DNA from: an uncultured Actinomycetes bacterium
Lineage (GTDB): Bacteria > Actinomycetota > Acidimicrobiia > Acidimicrobiales > Microtrichaceae
DNA length: 34,816 nt
NCBI GenBank assembly: GCA_903873135.1
Contig: CAIQNH010000065.1
Location: forward strand, 1-34,816
Reading direction: 5' to 3'
The position numbers and the translations under genes were made by a program. The first letter of the stretch is position 1, and each line of letters begins with the position of its first letter. The notes beneath the pieces were generated by a model. It worked only from the letters and a program-made list of their open reading frames with translations, did not search any database and had not been told where the DNA came from. Shown piece by piece: positions 18,084 through 24,741 of the stretch.

Positions 18084-19616
18084 TCAGTCGGCGTACTGGT
18101 CCCGCAGGACGTGCTTGAGGACCTTGCCGGCCGGATTCCGGGGGAGCACGTCGACCACCTCGACCTGCTCCGGCAGCTTCTGGTTCATGAGGCCCTCCCC
18201 TCGGAGGAACGCCACGACGTCCTCGAGGCCGAGTCCGGACGCACCGTCGACGAGCTGCACGACGGCGCACACCCGCTCGCCGCTGGACGGGTCCGGCAGG
18301 CCGATCACCGCCACGTCGGCGACCTCGGGGTGCTGGTACAGGAGGTCCTCGACCTCCTTGGCCGAGACGTTCTCCCCCTTGCGGATGATCACGTCCTTGA
18401 GGCGACCGGTGATGACCACGTTGCCCCGGTCGTCGATCCGACCCAGGTCACCCGTGCGGAAGAAGCCGTCCTCGTCGAAGGCAGCGGCGTCGAGCGAGCT
18501 GTCCAGGTAGCCCCGCATCACCTGCGGAGCCTTGGCCCGGATCTCACCCTCCTCACCGGGGCCGGCGACCCGGCCGTCCAGCGTGACCAGACGGAGCTCC
18601 ACCCCCGGCATGGGCTTGCCCTCGCTCGCGGCGAGCTCGTCGTCGCCGTCGGTGGTCGCGGCCATGGTGAGGATCGGAGCCTCGGTCAGGCCGTACCCCG
18701 ACAGCACCGGAGCCCCGAACACCTCACGGAGCTCGGCCACCAGCGACGGAGGCTTGGGGGCACCGCCGCCCGGGAAGCCCCTGACGTCCGGGAAGATCGG
18801 CTCGGAGCGCGACCGCTGGTAGGCCAGGTACGCCTGGTGGAACACGGTGCCGCTCCCCGCCAGGGTCACTCGCTCACGCGACAGGACCGCCGGGGTGTCC
18901 TCGGGGTGGAAGCCCTCGGTGAGGATGTTCGAGCAACCGGACTGCAGGCCGGCGAAGAGCCACGTCACCCCGCCGATGTGGGTGAACGGGAACACCAGGG
19001 CGTTCCGGTCGTCCTCGGTGACCGCGAGGCGCGCGGCCATGCCGTGGGCGACCGCGGCGATGGAGGCGTCGGTGTGCTGCGCCCCCTTCGGGTCGGCCGT
19101 CGTCCCCGAGGTGTAGAAGAGCCAGCGCACCGGCTGGGCCTCGGCGTCGAGGGCCGCAGCCCTCGGCGGCAGCCCCTCCGGGTCGCCCTCGGGGAGGGTG
19201 CGGTCCGCCACGAGCACCTGACTGCCCTCGACGTCGGCGACCACCGAACGCGCCATCGACTCGTAGTCGAACCCACGCCACTCCGACGGCACGATGAACA
19301 TCGACGACTGCGCCTGTCGCACGATGAAGCCGACCTCACGCTCCCGGTAGATGGGCAGGAGCGGGTTCTGCACGGCGTCGAGCCGACTCAACGCCGCCAC
19401 GAGCACGAGCGACTCGAGCCAGGTCGGGAGCTGCCAGGACACGACGGTGCCCGAGCCGACCCCGAGGTCCGCCAGACCGGCGGCCACTCGTTCGGCACGG
19501 TCCCGGAACTCGGCGAAGGTGATCGTCCGCTCGAGCTCGTCGACGGCGAGCCGACCGTCCGGGCTGAGCTCGACCCGCTGGTCGATCAGCTCCCACAACG
19601 TCCTGCCCTGCAGCAT
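18084..19616 (-). CDS. Acyl-CoA synthetase / AMP-dependent ligase
   Basis: 510-aa AMP-forming ligase. The P-loop FYTSGTTADPKG is at 167-178 (Ala-Asp in place of the common Gly-Xaa), SGYGLTEAPI is the adenylate-binding block, and the C-terminal hinge GRIDDRGNVVITGRLKD and NPAGKVLKH (Lys498) are present. It is shorter than, and clearly different from, the two FadD19-like ligases; it resembles cyclohexanecarboxylate/medium-chain acyl-CoA ligases. The ATG at 19616 has AGGGGG upstream; a longer frame is rejected as it runs through the promoter. It lies upstream of the Hsd4A-like gene, which has its own promoter. The substrate is not determinable. Confidence 0.85.
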   Translation of the reverse strand: MLQGRTLWELIDQRVELSPDGRLAVDELERTITFAEFRDRAERVAAGLADLGVGSGTVVSWQLPTWLESLVLVAALSRLDAVQNPLLPIYREREVGFIVRQAQSSMFIVPSEWRGFDYESMARSVVADVEGSQVLVADRTLPEGDPEGLPPRAAALDAEAQPVRWLFYTSGTTADPKGAQHTDASIAAVAHGMAARLAVTEDDRNALVFPFTHIGGVTWLFAGLQSGCSNILTEGFHPEDTPAVLSRERVTLAGSGTVFHQAYLAYQRSRSEPIFPDVRGFPGGGAPKPPSLVAELREVFGAPVLSGYGLTEAPILTMAATTDGDDELAASEGKPMPGVELRLVTLDGRVAGPGEEGEIRAKAPQVMRGYLDSSLDAAAFDEDGFFRTGDLGRIDDRGNVVITGRLKDVIIRKGENVSAKEVEDLLYQHPEVADVAVIGLPDPSSGERVCAVVQLVDGASGLGLEDVVAFLRGEGLMNQKLPEQVEVVDVLPRNPAGKVLKHVLRDQYAD

Positions 19617-19651
19617 GTCCGGCCCCCTGGTGTCTCGTCGGTGCGCCGTGG

Positions 19652-19657
19652 ACTCTA
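19652..19657 (-). promoter_or_regulatory. -10 element of acyl-CoA synthetase gene
   Basis: TAGAGT on the minus strand, about 36 bases before the ATG at 19616. It leaves a short leader carrying the AGGGGG ribosome-binding site. Confidence 0.4.
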
Positions 19658-19682
19658 GGTCCGGCCAGACCCCTGCCGCCGC

Positions 19683-19699
19683 CTCGGGCACAGCCCGAG
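19683..19699 (-). terminator. Hairpin after the ADH-cyclase-membrane protein operon
   Basis: CTCGGGC (19683-19689) and GCCCGAG (19693-19699) pair perfectly around a 3-nt loop, 19-35 bases past the stop of the membrane protein gene. It has no T run. Confidence 0.5.
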
Positions 19700-19717
19700 C
19701 GGACCGGTGGCCGGAAC

Positions 19718-20359
19718 TCAGCCCGGGGTGGCCGCGATGGGAGTGCCGACCTCCACGACGACGACCGGTCGGGCTCCCACCGCTCCCCGGAGGGGGAGCT
19801 CTGCCGACCGTGGCTCCGTGACCGGCTCGCACGGCACCCCCGCACGGGGGACGACGCCGACGACGAGCACCGTGACCGCCGTGGGGTCCTCGGTGACCGA
19901 GATCCGGGCCAGCGCCTCCTCGGCGCTGCGGAGACAGCCCACCGAGACCCTGAGGGAACCGCCGTCGGGTGTCGGCACCGCGGTCGCCGGGAGGACGGCG
20001 TCGTCCACCGGGGCCGACCGGAGGGCCTCGGGGACCGGGTAGCTGAACGTGGTCACGTCGCCGTCCACGGCGACGGCGGAGACGCCGTTGGGGGCCGAGG
20101 CCCCTCCCGGCAGCGTGACGGGGACGGTGGCACCCGGGGCCTCCTCCGGGGTCGTCCCAGCGGTCGTCTGCGGCACGTCGAGCCGCTGCCGGTTGGAGGA
20201 CTGGGTGCTGTAGCCCAGCAGGACCCCGGCCAGGCCGATGCCGGCGAGGACGAGGAACCCGACCAGGAACGGCCAGATGCTGACGGTACGCGGCCCGGTG
20301 GGACCGTCGGTCGGTCGAGCCCGGGAGCCGCTCCGGAGGGACGGACGCCGACCTGCCAC
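19718..20359 (-). CDS. Small single-pass membrane protein with extracytoplasmic domain
   Basis: 213 aa, family not recognised. A basic N-terminus (1-25) precedes one membrane helix at about 28-50 (IWPFLVGFLVLAGIGLAGVLLGY). A Thr/Pro-rich linker and a Val-rich outer domain with two Cys follow, so it is predicted N-in/C-out. It begins with a GTG at 20359, 7 bases after the cyclase stop, and is the last gene of the ADH-cyclase operon. A longer frame upstream overlaps the cyclase and is not used. There is no enzymatic motif; a sensor or cell-envelope accessory role is conceivable but unsupported. Confidence 0.7.
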   Translation of the reverse strand: MAGRRPSLRSGSRARPTDGPTGPRTVSIWPFLVGFLVLAGIGLAGVLLGYSTQSSNRQRLDVPQTTAGTTPEEAPGATVPVTLPGGASAPNGVSAVAVDGDVTTFSYPVPEALRSAPVDDAVLPATAVPTPDGGSLRVSVGCLRSAEEALARISVTEDPTAVTVLVVGVVPRAGVPCEPVTEPRSAELPLRGAVGARPVVVVEVGTPIAATPG

Positions 20360-20366
20360 CGGCCGC

Positions 20367-21323
20367 CTACAGGATCGCGACCGGCGCGACGGGGGTGCTC
20401 GACGCTCCGACGATCGGCTCGGGCGCCGCCGCCAGCAACACGTCGCCCCGGCCGAGTTCGGCGCACCGCTCGGCGAGCAGCTCCAGATCCCAGTTCTGAC
20501 CCTGGAGCAGACCCATGTCCCGGACCTGCAACAGGTGGACCGCCAGGCAGTCGGTCCAGTCCGGGAGCGAGGGAGGGAACGCCTCGTAGGCGTAGGAGTC
20601 GGTGAAGGCACCGGCCACGTCGTGCGCGTGCATCCACTCCACCGAGTGGATCGAGAGTCCCGGCAACGAGTGCTGGCTGCCGACGGCGTACCGGAGCCGG
20701 TCACCACGGTGGTAGTGGCCCATCATGCCCGTCCTGACGAGCACCACGTCACCCGGGAGGACCTCGACGCGAGCCAGCTCGGCAGCGGCGTCCAGGTCCT
20801 CGGCGGTGATCGGGTAGCCCGGGTCGAGCTCGTCGAGGCAGTCGACCCCGTGGACCCTCGCGACGTCGAGCAGCACGCCCCGGGTCACGATCTGGGGCAG
20901 ACGCTCGGCACCCAGGACGGTCGCCCCGTACTGCGCGGTGACCGCCGAGGTCGGGAACCCGTTGTAGAGCTGGGAGTCGTAGGCCACGTGACACAGGGCG
21001 TCCACGTGGGTGCCGGCGCACGTGGACATGAACACGGCGTCGTCGGTCCCCTCCCAGATCCCCGGAGCGAACTGGTCACGCTCGTTCAGCGACGTGACGG
21101 TGAGGATCGGGTTGTAGCGGCGGGCCGGCTGGCCGACCTGGATCCCGTCCGCCCGCAGATCGACGGCCAGGTCGATCCGCTCGCCCAGCCGGACGCTCTC
21201 GACCCCCCGGCGGGTGGACTCCTCGGTGAGGAGGTTGCCGCAACCGAGCTGATCGTCGTCCCCCCATCGTCCCCAGTTCGACACCTGCGCCGAGAGTTCC
21301 AGCAGGTGCTCGGGGAGCGGCAC
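20367..21323 (-). CDS. Cyclase family protein (kynurenine-formamidase-like metal hydrolase)
   Basis: 318-aa protein of the cyclase superfamily, which includes bacterial kynurenine formamidase and polyketide-like cyclases. The metal-binding motif GTHVDALCH is at 104-112 (family H-x-G-T-H-x-D-x-x-x-H type). A later GLSIHSVEWMHAHDVAGAFTDSYAYE region supplies further family His/Asp residues. The family usually hydrolyses amide or ester bonds with Mn/Zn. The N-terminal NWGRWGDDDQLGCGNLL block is typical of the actinobacterial subgroup found beside dehydrogenases. The GTG start at 21323 lies 9 bases after the ADH stop, so it is in the ADH operon. The substrate is unknown. Confidence 0.85.
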   Translation of the reverse strand: MPLPEHLLELSAQVSNWGRWGDDDQLGCGNLLTEESTRRGVESVRLGERIDLAVDLRADGIQVGQPARRYNPILTVTSLNERDQFAPGIWEGTDDAVFMSTCAGTHVDALCHVAYDSQLYNGFPTSAVTAQYGATVLGAERLPQIVTRGVLLDVARVHGVDCLDELDPGYPITAEDLDAAAELARVEVLPGDVVLVRTGMMGHYHRGDRLRYAVGSQHSLPGLSIHSVEWMHAHDVAGAFTDSYAYEAFPPSLPDWTDCLAVHLLQVRDMGLLQGQNWDLELLAERCAELGRGDVLLAAAPEPIVGASSTPVAPVAIL

Positions 21324-21332
21324 GCCGACCCC

Positions 21333-22406
21333 TCAGTCCCCGAGGACGACGACGCCGCGAGCGAGCCGCCCCTCGTGGAGTTCGGCGAGGGCCTGGTCGA
21401 ACCCCTCGATCGGGTAGGTGGCCGTCACCAACTCGTCGAGCTGGAGTCGGCCCGCTCGGTAGAGGTCGACCACGAGGGGGACGTCGTGCGCCGGTCGGGC
21501 CGACCCGTACCGACACCCCATGAGCGACTTGTCGTTGTACATCGTGTTGACCACGAAGCTGGCCTCGGTGCCCATCCTGGGGACACCCAGCATCACGACC
21601 GAGCCCCCGAAGTCGAGCAGGTCGGTCGACAACCGGATGAGCGCTGTCGACCCGACGCACTCGAACACCCAGTCGACACCGTTCGGCCGGATCTCCCGCA
21701 CGGCCTCCACCAGGTCGTCGTCGGGTCCGGGGCAGATGAAGTGGGTGGCGCCGAACTGCCGGGCGACCGCCTCCTTGGCGGGGTTCGTGTCGACGGCGAT
21801 GATCGGCAGCGAGTCGCTCAGCGCCAGACCCTGGATCACGTTCAGGCCGATGCCGCCGACGCCGATCACGACCGACGACTCCCCGTGGGTGACCCGGGCC
21901 CGGTTGAACACGGCACCCACGCCGGTGAGCACCCCACAACCGATCAGGCAGGCGCTGGTCAGCGGCACGTCGGCGGGGATCGGGATGGCGGAGGTCGCCG
22001 GGACGACGGTCGACTCGACGAAGACCGAGGTGTTCGCGAACTGGAACGCCTTGTCGCCTCCGACGGTGAACGGTCGGGACAGCTTGCCCAGGCTGGTGCG
22101 ACAGAACGTCGGCTTGCCCCGGGAGCAGGCTGCGCACGTGCCGCAGTTGCCGAGCGTGGTCAGCACGACGTGGTCGCCCACGGCCGTCGAGGTCACGTCG
22201 TCGGCCACTGCCTCGACCACGCCGGCGCCCTCGTGGCCGAGCACCACGGGCGTCGGGAACATGATCGTGCCGTCGAGCACCGAGACGTCGGAGTGACACA
22301 GTCCGGCTGCGGCGAGCCGCACCCGGACCTCCCCCGGTCGCAGGTCGCGCACCTCGACGTCGTCACGCAACGCCGCGGTCTCGCCGTCCCAGACGATTCC
22401 CTTCAC
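21333..22406 (-). CDS. Zinc-dependent alcohol dehydrogenase (MDR family)
   Basis: 357-aa medium-chain dehydrogenase. Catalytic zinc ligands Cys37 and His58-Glu59 (GHEGAG) and the structural zinc lobe Cys88, Cys91, Cys94, Cys102 are all present. The NAD-binding GVGGIGLNVIQG and an acidic residue after the second strand (VDTNP) favour NAD over NADP. It resembles class-III/AdhB-type actinobacterial enzymes that oxidise primary alcohols. The GTG at 22406 is chosen over an upstream ATG at 22454 because a near-perfect GGAGGTGA ribosome-binding site precedes it and MKGIVWDG is the usual family start. It is the first gene of a three-gene operon with the cyclase and membrane protein. Confidence 0.88.
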   Translation of the reverse strand: MKGIVWDGETAALRDDVEVRDLRPGEVRVRLAAAGLCHSDVSVLDGTIMFPTPVVLGHEGAGVVEAVADDVTSTAVGDHVVLTTLGNCGTCAACSRGKPTFCRTSLGKLSRPFTVGGDKAFQFANTSVFVESTVVPATSAIPIPADVPLTSACLIGCGVLTGVGAVFNRARVTHGESSVVIGVGGIGLNVIQGLALSDSLPIIAVDTNPAKEAVARQFGATHFICPGPDDDLVEAVREIRPNGVDWVFECVGSTALIRLSTDLLDFGGSVVMLGVPRMGTEASFVVNTMYNDKSLMGCRYGSARPAHDVPLVVDLYRAGRLQLDELVTATYPIEGFDQALAELHEGRLARGVVVLGD

Positions 22407-22482
22407 CCCGTCACCTCCAGCAGCCCTCGGCGCCGGAGCGTCGGGGCGGATCATTCACCGGGGCGAGCGCCACGGCCTGCGG

Positions 22483-22546: not shown

Positions 22547-24199
22547 TCAGGTGCAGCTCGGCCCGCTCGACACCGACCGCGAGGCCTTCCCGGAGTTCCC
22601 CGCTCCGTCGACCGCGGACGCCGAGAGGCTCACCGAGGTGGCCGGTTGCGGGAACACGAACGACACGGTGATCGAGGATCCCCCGGAGGACTTGCTGCCC
22701 GAGACCCCGCTCCCACTCCACGACAGGGTGATCCCCTGCACGCCGGACGCATCCGACGCCGAGGCGGTGAAGGTCCCCGAGCCTCCCCAGGGCACGCACG
22801 AGGGTCCGCTGATCTTGATCGAGGGGCCCTGCACGTCCGGCGGCTGCGTGGTCGTGGTCGTGGTGGACGGTGGCGGTGGCGGAGGTGCCGGGGGAGGTGC
22901 CGGCGCAGGCACCGGTGCCGGTGGCTGGACGTACTGCTGCACCGTCGAGGGGGTGGAGCCCTGCGGCGGCGACGAGGTCGTCGACGACACCGAGGCGGTG
23001 CCGCCCTCGGCCGGGGGCGCCACCGGGGGCGGCACCGGCGGCGGCAGTCCGGGCAGGAGCGGCACCGTCGACTCGGTGACGGCGGGTGCGAGGGTCGTCG
23101 AGGTCGAGGTGGGCACGGACACGCCTGCGGTGCGCACCTCCTCGATCTCGCCACGGTCGAGCAGGAGGGCACCGCCGCCGAGCAGCAGGGCGGCGACCCC
23201 GAGCGCCCCGACCACCGCCGGCCACCTGCGTCGACCTGAGTCGGCCGGCGGGAAGCCGTCCGGTCGCCACCGTCCGCCGCGCGGCACGCCGAGTCGGGCG
23301 GGCGCCTCGGCGAGGAAGCGCTCCCGCGCCGAGATCGGGGCGGCCAGCACCGTGGACTGTGCCGAGAGGGCCAGGGCCGACCCCGACAGGACCGCCTTGG
23401 AGACGCGCGAACGCAGGGAACCGCACCGTTCGCACTGCTTGATGTGTCGAGCGAAGCGCTTGCGCCAGAGGACGTTGAACTGTCCGTCCCAACTGTCGGC
23501 GACCTCGTCGAGTCCGTCGCAGTTGGACCGACCGGACCGGGCGATCAGCAGGGCCGACGTGGCGGCCTCGAGCCGCTCCTTCATGCGGTGGACCAGCTGG
23601 TAGCCGTGATCCCGCTTCACGCCGAGCGCGTCGGCGAGATCCTGCCCGTCGAGCCCCTGGGTCAGGTGGAGCTCGAGCACCATCCGGTCCCGCTCGTCGA
23701 GTCCGGCCGATGCGTCCTGCAGGAGGGCTGCCAGGTCCGCCTGGGTCGCGCCCGGCTCGAGGTCGACCTCGTCACCGATCACCGACGTCGCCGAACCGAA
23801 CGGGTCGGAGACCGAGAAGTCGTCCACGGCCGCCAGGTCCTCGTGGTCGGCGCCGGCGTCGGCGAAGACGTCCGAGGACCCCGGCAGATCCAGGCCGATG
23901 CCCCCCACCGCCCCCAGCGGGACCTCGCGCCGCCGCTGACGGCTCCGCCGGTAGACCTCGTGCCGGGCGATGGCGTAGAGCCACGACTTGAGCTTCTCGG
24001 GCTCTCGGAGCTGACCGAGCCGCTCGGCCGCCGTCAGGAACACCTCGGCGGTGACGTCGGCTGCGGCGTCGTCGTCTCGGAGCATGTGGACGCACATCGT
24101 GTGGATGCGGTCGGCGTACCGGTCGTAGAGGGTCGCGAGCGCGGAGGAGTCCCCGCCGAGCATCCGCTCGACCAAGGCAGCATCGGTGAGTGTCTCCAT
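22547..24199 (-). CDS. ECF-type sigma factor fused to zinc anti-sigma-like domain, membrane helix and outer domain
   Basis: 550 aa in one uninterrupted frame. Region sigma-2 is at about 7-90 (ALATLYDRYADRIH, AEVFLTAAERLGQL, LKSWLYAIARHEVYR) and sigma-4 at about 155-215 (LDERDRMVLELHLTQGLDGQDLADALG). A segment then follows with Cys227, His252, Cys256, Cys259 (HIKQCERC), which matches the zinc anti-sigma C-x24-H-x3-C-x2-C pattern of RsrA-like proteins. A membrane helix (326-347), a Thr- and Pro-rich linker (363-455, with runs of Pro and Thr) and a Cys-bracketed Ig-like outer domain (457-550) complete the chain. A sigma factor tethered to the membrane by its own anti-sigma domain would need proteolysis or conformational release to act. 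The ATG at 24199 begins right at the sigma domain; the frame upstream is not used. Confidence 0.85.
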   Translation of the reverse strand: METLTDAALVERMLGGDSSALATLYDRYADRIHTMCVHMLRDDDAAADVTAEVFLTAAERLGQLREPEKLKSWLYAIARHEVYRRSRQRRREVPLGAVGGIGLDLPGSSDVFADAGADHEDLAAVDDFSVSDPFGSATSVIGDEVDLEPGATQADLAALLQDASAGLDERDRMVLELHLTQGLDGQDLADALGVKRDHGYQLVHRMKERLEAATSALLIARSGRSNCDGLDEVADSWDGQFNVLWRKRFARHIKQCERCGSLRSRVSKAVLSGSALALSAQSTVLAAPISARERFLAEAPARLGVPRGGRWRPDGFPPADSGRRRWPAVVGALGVAALLLGGGALLLDRGEIEEVRTAGVSVPTSTSTTLAPAVTESTVPLLPGLPPPVPPPVAPPAEGGTASVSSTTSSPPQGSTPSTVQQYVQPPAPVPAPAPPPAPPPPPPSTTTTTTQPPDVQGPSIKISGPSCVPWGGSGTFTASASDASGVQGITLSWSGSGVSGSKSSGGSSITVSFVFPQPATSVSLSASAVDGAGNSGKASRSVSSGPSCT

Positions 24200-24216
24200 C
24201 GACCGCGAACCCTTCG

Positions 24217-24233
24217 ACTGGTGCGGCACCAGT
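24217..24233. promoter_or_regulatory. Palindrome upstream of the sigma-factor fusion gene
   Basis: ACTGGTGC and GCACCAGT form a perfect 8-bp inverted repeat around one base, 18 bases before the ATG at 24199. It could be an operator or an mRNA hairpin near the ribosome-binding region. I see no second copy in this window. Confidence 0.45.
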
Positions 24234-24243
24234 GTGCACCACG

Positions 24244-24273: not shown

Positions 24274-24741
24274 TCACGCGCTCCGACCTGCGAGTCGACG
24301 GGCGACCCCACCGGAGAGCCCCACCGCTGCGGCGACCACGATGAGACCGAGGCCCACGAGGAGCGCCGGGAACCCGCCCGGGCCGTCGAGCCACTCGGGC
24401 GAGGGTCCGGTCACGGTCGGGGACACCTCACGCTCGGCGGCGCCCACGGTGCCGGACCCCGACGTCGAGAGCAGCCGGACGGGATCGCCGTCGATCTCGG
24501 GGACGGGTTCGGGGACCGTGTCGACGACCACCACGACGCCGCCGGTCAGCGGCAGCACCGCTGCAGGTGGGACGGCGGGCGCCGCCGGAGCGGCCGCGGG
24601 GACGGCGGCCACCCGGGCCACGGGGACCAGGGCCGCTGCGGAGCAGACCAGCACCAGGAGCGGGACGGCCGCGAGCCTCCGCACGGGATGCCGTCTGAGC
24701 CCGCCGGTGGGCGGGAGCGTCGAACGTCGAGCTCGGATCAC
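24274..24741 (-). CDS. Small secreted or membrane-anchored Ala/Pro/Val-rich protein
   Basis: 155 aa, family not recognised. A basic N-terminus and hydrophobic stretch (22-46) look like a signal peptide or anchor; an Ala/Pro linker (47-62), a short outer segment and a C-terminal membrane helix (124-145) with basic tail follow. LPLTGG at 63-68 resembles a sortase motif but is in the wrong place, with no helix directly after it. The GTG at 24741 has a good AGGAGG ribosome-binding site 8 nt upstream. It lies directly upstream of, and in the same direction as, the sigma-factor fusion, so it may be a partner or target of that envelope-sensing system; this is inference from position only. Confidence 0.65.
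   Translation of the reverse strand: MIRARRSTLPPTGGLRRHPVRRLAAVPLLVLVCSAAALVPVARVAAVPAAAPAAPAVPPAAVLPLTGGVVVVVDTVPEPVPEIDGDPVRLLSTSGSGTVGAAEREVSPTVTGPSPEWLDGPGGFPALLVGLGLIVVAAAVGLSGGVARRLAGRSA

Follow-up and report, generated by a model that had tools for sequence, protein, structure and literature searches.

The window analysed here, the whole 34,816-nucleotide stretch of DNA from an uncultured Actinomycetes bacterium, carries on its minus strand a gene whose product probably unites a signalling pathway in one protein, that is, an ECF sigma factor held inactive and membrane-bound by a class I anti-sigma module of the zinc type that forms part of its own C-terminal half, the probable sensor being an extracytoplasmic PKD/Ig-like domain. 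According to the list of open reading frames and the translation, the gene encodes 550 aa (22550-24199) and occupies 22547..24199 together with its stop codon (22547-22549). Its ATG, at 24199, is in the same place in the three orthologues L009, L010 and L011, and is preceded at a distance of 10 nt by GAAGGG (24210..24215, minus strand), a likely ribosome-binding site that also stands before the L009 and L010 starts. A plus-strand reading of 22547-24199 was ruled out by an in-frame stop. All the parts that the sequence-only reading had proposed for this frame (sigma-2 and sigma-4 regions, a set of zinc ligands, a membrane helix, a Pro/Thr-rich linker and a Cys-bracketed Ig-like outer domain) were recovered, and its idea of a self-tethered, self-inhibited sigma factor was supported by the conserved ligands, the confident fold predicted for residues 1-321, a SigW-RsiW-like placement of the sigma domains and the hydrophobic helix that follows the module in most homologue frames. 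The novelty that it implied did not hold, because fusions of a sigma factor, a zinc anti-sigma part and a membrane helix have already been published for groups ECF48, ECF52 and ECF53 (PMC8999054, PMC5826349).

The window protein was clearly recognised as an ECF sigma factor by sequence profiles. Sigma region 2 (residues 1-92; 23924..24199, minus strand) gave a match to Sigma70_r2 (PF04542) at residues 24-91 with an E of 3.2e-11 and 43.3 bits, over the Pfam cut-off of 24, and the sigma70-ECF model TIGR02937 of NCBI matched residues 20-211 with 62.7 bits, over its cut-off of 42.9. The latter match thus ran to residue 211 of sigma region 4 (residues 153-222; 23534..23743, minus strand), while the region-4 Pfam models taken by themselves were all under cut-off in the window protein, Sigma70_r4_2 (PF08281) reaching 19.3 bits of the 25.7 needed at residues 159-205. 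The profile searches suggested by the sequence-only reading were therefore positive for sigma-2 and remained below the Pfam cut-offs for region 4 and for zf-HC2, and the separate identification of sigma region 4 and of the zinc module as such is proposed from their homologues and from the predicted structure. The sigma-4 part of the AlphaFold2 model aligned with solved sigma factors in VIA, and block pLDDT values were 89-97 for residues 1-90 and 87-95 for region 4. Between both regions lies a variable linker (residues 93-152; 23744..23923, minus strand) that is poorly conserved, has no sigma-3 domain and showed a pLDDT <50 at residues 106-144.

The putative zinc anti-sigma module (residues 223-305; 23285..23533, minus strand) contains Cys227-x24-His252-x3-Cys256-x2-Cys259, at the residues that had been proposed, and so presents the Hx3Cx2C motif and the upstream ligand that are a feature of class I zinc anti-sigma factors. 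Besides Cys227, Cys256 and Cys259, the only cysteines of the 550-aa protein are those at 36, 468 and 549. Helices were predicted at residues 228-235, 243-255, 257-270, 274-280 and 289-302, with block pLDDT values of 87-97 except for 69 at 271-280 and 73 at 301-310. The zf-HC2 match at residues 246-259 (11.5 bits) failed the Pfam cut-off of 22.2, and for this reason we kept the name zinc anti-sigma-like module and did not call it a zf-HC2 member. All four ligands were kept in 77 of the 80 homologue frames that matched the A3 profile at E <=1e-6, a count that includes duplicates and leans towards ligand-bearing proteins. The rows of A3 had been picked by a pattern requiring the zinc motif, which dropped 12 of the 35 scanned loci (L078 was left out by hand), so that the invariance of the ligands within A3 is by construction. 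In three loci of a single genus, g195 (L106, L108 and L129), zinc ligands have been lost and the layout has been kept.

The module is followed by a cytoplasmic juxtamembrane segment (residues 306-325; 23225..23284, minus strand) with GFPP at residues 315-318 (23246-23257). Of 70 homologues, 33 have a G[FY]P motif on the cytoplasmic side ahead of the membrane helix, compared with a mean of 0.88 in shuffled sequences, and its distance from this helix was mostly 11-20 residues. The membrane helix itself, previously placed at 326-347, was found at residues 326-348 (23156..23224, minus strand; Kyte-Doolittle value of 2.34). Of 74 homologue frames, 70 showed a hydrophobic helix beyond the zinc module, L095 being counted twice in both numbers since its locus overlaps a neighbouring copy; the four others were L058, whose tail is cut off, L113 and L117, which reached 1.59 with a limit of 1.6, and L079, which has a short tail. 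The sigma frame of L079 ends shortly past its C...H...C..C module, and no membrane helix was found in it.

Outside the membrane, a linker rich in Pro, Thr and Ser (residues 349-456; 22832..23155, minus strand; 31 Pro, 18 Thr and 12 Ser of 108 residues) leads to a predicted PKD/Ig-like beta-sandwich (residues 457-550; 22550..22831, minus strand) that is bracketed by two cysteines, Cys468 close to the beginning and Cys549 as the last residue but one. The first AlphaFold2 model, built from 8 rows, had a low mean pLDDT of 59.6 and was relied on for the outer domain only, where block pLDDT was 73-88 for residues 461-550. In VIA this domain was nearest to bacterial PKD domains (4jrw_A, Z 11.3, 85 residues, 2.2 Å), and no Pfam family matched it at cut-off, Big_7 giving an E of 0.027. 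The outer tails of the homologues had exactly two cysteines in 41 of 70 cases, none in 29 of 70 and never an odd number; in these counts the tail of L097 looks frame-shifted and the helix chosen for L123 is its last one. Such a two-or-none pattern is as would be expected from a disulfide in an oxidising compartment, the related sequences not being independent of each other. The outer modules of nine homologues were scanned with Pfam, and those above cut-off were CAP (L112), PASTA (L105, in two stretches), a beta-helix (L123), BACON_2 (L120 and L054), a HYDIN-like Ig (L054) and Big_9/cadherin (L064). PASTA is usually a cell-wall-binding module. Among the same nine, L107 gave no outer-module match, and L062 and L106 gave only sub-threshold Ig or BACON matches. 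In the Pfam scan, L106 and L120 showed no Sigma70_r2 match at E 0.05, which makes them divergent members.

For residues 1-321, AlphaFold2 gave a mean pLDDT of 83.1 and a pTM of 0.78 with a disordered sigma linker, using a 58-row alignment (A4) of the window protein and 57 of the 72 reference sequences. The arrangement of sigma-2 and sigma-4 resembled that of SigW-RsiW (5wur/5wuq), for which Foldseek gave a TMt of 0.78-0.80 and an rmsd of 3.0-4.4, and in VIA the placement also fitted CnrH-CnrY (Z 13.4, 3.4 Å) and RpoE-NepR (Z 12.5, 3.3 Å), the overall range for the three complexes being Z 12.5-15 and 3.3-3.4 Å over 149-157 residues. ECF sigma factors in RNA polymerase complexes deviated by an rmsd of 20-29 Å over both domains in Foldseek, and in VIA they either aligned on sigma-2 alone or deviated by 26-28 Å. 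RpoE-RseA, AlgU-MucA, BldN-RsbN and SigK-RskA did not share the placement (9.6-15 Å in Foldseek), and SigE-ChrR aligned on sigma-2 only in VIA. SigG1, whose entry names no anti-sigma factor, fitted in VIA (136 residues, 2.5 Å) but not in Foldseek (9.7-10.2 Å), and because of the VIA fit the predicted placement is not unique to anti-sigma complexes. No solved anti-sigma chain was among the best 50 rows for the 1-321 model, rows that barely reach past residue 219 and so do not speak against such a likeness. In PMC7406223, the class I zinc anti-sigma domain is described with its helix 1 on sigma-4 and its helix 4 on sigma-2, and RsiW is described as wrapping around the sigma domains, in contrast to anti-sigma factors that are sandwiched between them. 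The model is compatible with an RsiW-like, occluded state, as judged from the placement of the sigma domains and not as proof of contact by the module.

A scan of genomes gave 27 relatives. Six, from actinobacterial MAGs (L009-L014, two of them Microthrixaceae), matched over the sigma regions and the zinc module, the other 21 matching mainly over sigma-2. Sigma-2, sigma-4 and the zinc module were 78-93% identical to those of the orthologues L009-L011, and the differences in the sigma and zinc part fell mostly on third codon positions. Two stretches vary without evident constraint among the orthologues, namely the linker between sigma-2 and sigma-4 and the Pro/Thr linker, the latter differing at all three codon positions; the outer domain was between these extremes, with 72/94, 66/93 and 51/93 identical residues to L009, L010 and L011, respectively, and was least constrained in L011. 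The own genome of the window has, on contig C37, a second protein of the same layout that has no outer domain, and this domain is missing or different in L012 as well as in the C37 paralogue. In L010 and L011 a second fused sigma-zinc-membrane protein (L010:568-2067 and L011:698-2044) is encoded upstream and in the same orientation of L010:2859-4541 and L011:3010-4638; in the own genome such a paralogue is on the separate contig C37.

The search of related genomes for the same architecture, another suggestion of the sequence-only reading, thus yielded homologues with the same order of parts, and across the phylum this order is kept. The sigma-zinc profile was matched at E <=1e-3 by 132 of 148 genomes of the same class, many of the matches listed being to the sigma part only. 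The profile of sigma-4 plus zinc module was matched at E <=1e-6 by 139 of 396 genomes of the phylum, in many of them over sigma-4 only, and near full-length matches (E <=~1e-14) were present in 39 of the 396 genomes, as read off the match table.

Upstream of the likely ribosome-binding site, the CGTGGTGCANNNTGG block (24229..24243, minus strand) is a candidate promoter element, found at position -44 relative to the start codon both in the window gene and in L009, L010 and L011. No genome-wide enrichment of this block was detected, as with <=1 mismatch it had 23 + 19 matches, compared with 39 + 33 for the reversed control pattern. Its use as a regulon mark was ruled out by this smaller number of matches, and the genome search for the -44 block revealed neither a regulon nor a target promoter. 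Farther upstream, 74 nt before the sigma gene, a frame of 155 aa (24274..24741, minus strand), whose C-terminus consists of a hydrophobic helix and a basic tail, could encode a partner. Of 10 upstream regions, 7 (those of the window gene and L009-L014) had a same-strand frame with a C-terminus of this kind that ends 65-218 nt ahead of the sigma gene, and such frames were absent from the three others examined, which precede the C37, L010 and L011 paralogues. In the L011, L012, L013 and L014 frames the helix is preceded by LAFTG, LAYTG, LAFTG and LAVTG, respectively, which we take to resemble a cell-wall sorting signal of the LPXTG type. The frame at 24274-24741 contains no LA[FYV]TG-like pentapeptide and gave no tblastn match in the other loci, so at best it may be a like-placed, fast-changing gene. 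After the sigma gene, the minus strand of the window (18084-22454) bears an alcohol-dehydrogenase-like gene, recognised by eye, and then the genes at 20367-21323 and 18084-19832. The order of these three genes was the same in L009-L012, and the first two had matches in L013, farther away.

According to PMC8999054, the ECF48, ECF52 and ECF53 proteins combine a sigma factor with a zinc-finger anti-sigma part and with one to two membrane helices in one fusion, and their activation by proteolysis is expected. The member SCO4117 (ECF52) of Streptomyces coelicolor has been partly studied and a truncated form of it is discussed as the released sigma factor; like the window protein, it has an ECF sigma factor, a zinc finger, a membrane region, a Pro-rich extension and an outer domain in one chain (PMC5826349). 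The ECF52 outer domain is carbohydrate-binding, whereas that of the window protein is PKD/Ig-like with two cysteines, and neither the window protein nor its tail gave a Pfam match to NPCBM, the carbohydrate-binding domain of the ECF52 type. For lack of this domain the window protein is not filed as ECF52, although it probably works like it. Three homologues, L143-L145, have the same layout with an NPCBM tail, and also the upstream Cys and H-x3-C-x2-C (the profile match of L143 covered profile positions 9-259); from the tail we infer that they are of the ECF52 type. ECF48 and ECF53 share with the window protein the C-terminal zinc-finger fusion and the membrane helices, a comparison made with their description in PMC8999054, and this protein could be a member of either group or of an undescribed one.

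A tree of 76 rows was built from the sigma columns only, including 60 of the 72 reference sequences. The NPCBM-tailed group (L143-L145) was separated from the clade of the window protein and grouped, by a long branch of 2.71, with 12 other ECF sigma factors. A single clade of all 64 fused rows, and with it a single origin of the fusion, was not rejected (p-AU 0.464), several rows had long branches, and a possible false joining of two pairs of control branches was flagged by the program. The 12 other ECF sigma factors are not all stand-alone, as four of them (L017, L021, L024 and L026) end in a long hydrophobic tail. These four come from other phyla and have no H-x3-C-x2-C, representing a different kind of membrane-fused sigma factor.

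IutY (ECF243) of Pseudomonas putida also carries a sigma and an anti-sigma part in one membrane protein, from which the sigma factor is released by Prc and RseP cuts, and its anti-sigma domain is described as periplasmic (PMC5411451). The zinc module of the window protein lies, on the contrary, between sigma-4 and the membrane. IutY is presumably FecR-like, and a FecR-type domain was not among the five Pfam families listed for the window protein up to E 10. SigW-RsiW of Bacillus subtilis provides the nearest solved placement of sigma-2 and sigma-4, and RsiW has a zinc motif according to PMC7406223, but it is a system of two proteins and that of the window is a single chain. The kind of fusion is consequently already known, and what we describe is a variant of it with a different outer domain and a set of family-wide features: varied outer modules, the juxtamembrane G[FY]P, a small gene upstream for a C-terminally anchored, surface-type protein, and an inhibitor that would be left on the sigma factor after a membrane cut.

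In the mechanism that we propose, the zinc module would inhibit by covering sigma-2 and sigma-4, and a site-2 protease, in response to a signal at the outer domain, would cut the protein within the membrane helix or close to it. Regulated proteolysis appears to be the likeliest trigger, by analogy with IutY and with the proposal for SCO4117. M50 matches occurred at four loci of the own genome; they also occurred in 14 of 14 control genomes, and hence their presence is weak evidence. Since the inhibitor would not be removed by a cut at the membrane, activation would call for one more step, and this second unlocking of the zinc module still on the sigma factor could be a partial degradation from the new C-terminus that halts at sigma-4 or, alternatively, zinc loss or a conformational change.

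Other readings of the same architecture have to be weighed against this one. The zinc module could be chiefly a cytoplasmic thiol/zinc switch, in which oxidation or zinc loss frees the tethered sigma factor, the role of the membrane helix and outer domain being no more than to localise it. The persistence of all four ligands in 77 of the 80 frames would suit such a switch, cytoplasmic zinc anti-sigma factors are often redox sensors (PMC7406223), and no protease evidence points specifically to the window protein; however, we consider it unlikely, since the model shows a folded outer domain, the varied binding or Ig-like modules of the homologues would be needless for idle anchors, and the same paper suggests a structural role for zinc in membrane-bound anti-sigma factors such as RsiW. 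The strongly conserved zinc ligands and outer folds also weigh against a constitutive or developmental turnover, in which proteolysis matures the protein by default, regulation is mainly transcriptional and the outer domain has no ligand. This we regard as very unlikely, even though no ligand of the outer domain is known and positive autoregulation and stage-dependent expression have been suggested for SCO4117 (PMC5826349).

The sequence-only reading had itself named the possibility that the C-terminal half is unrelated filler, which would make the protein an ordinary soluble ECF sigma factor. The free evolution of the Pro/Thr linker, the sub-threshold zf-HC2 match and the absent or differing outer domain of L012 and the C37 paralogue are what can be said for it. 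Nevertheless, the zinc module was about as conserved as the sigma part in L009-L011, its ligands persisted in nearly all the homologue frames, the helix came after it in 70 of 74 and the outer domain was modelled as a confident beta-sandwich, making this explanation extremely improbable.

The one-protein pathway, our preferred reading, may also be extended to a much more speculative picture that we hold to be rather doubtful. Here the Actinomycetota would possess a large family, evolved separately, of membrane-tethered and self-inhibited sigma factors, whose outer modules (PKD-like, CAP, PASTA, beta-helix, BACON and cadherin-like) would be freely swapped, each converting a different wall or surface cue to transcription within a single polypeptide. 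The sensor of the own lineage would work with the small surface-anchored protein encoded upstream, and activation would need a step of partial proteolysis or unlocking involving G[FY]P.

As one chain would serve as receptor and anchor and also as inhibitor and transcription factor, a whole pathway from the outside of the cell to its genes could be moved or studied as a single gene. The window protein also sharpens the question posed by the ECF52-type proteins, namely how a sigma factor sheds an inhibitor that is covalently joined between itself and the membrane. The family would amount to a natural series of single-protein sensors, provided that its outer modules can be exchanged for one another.
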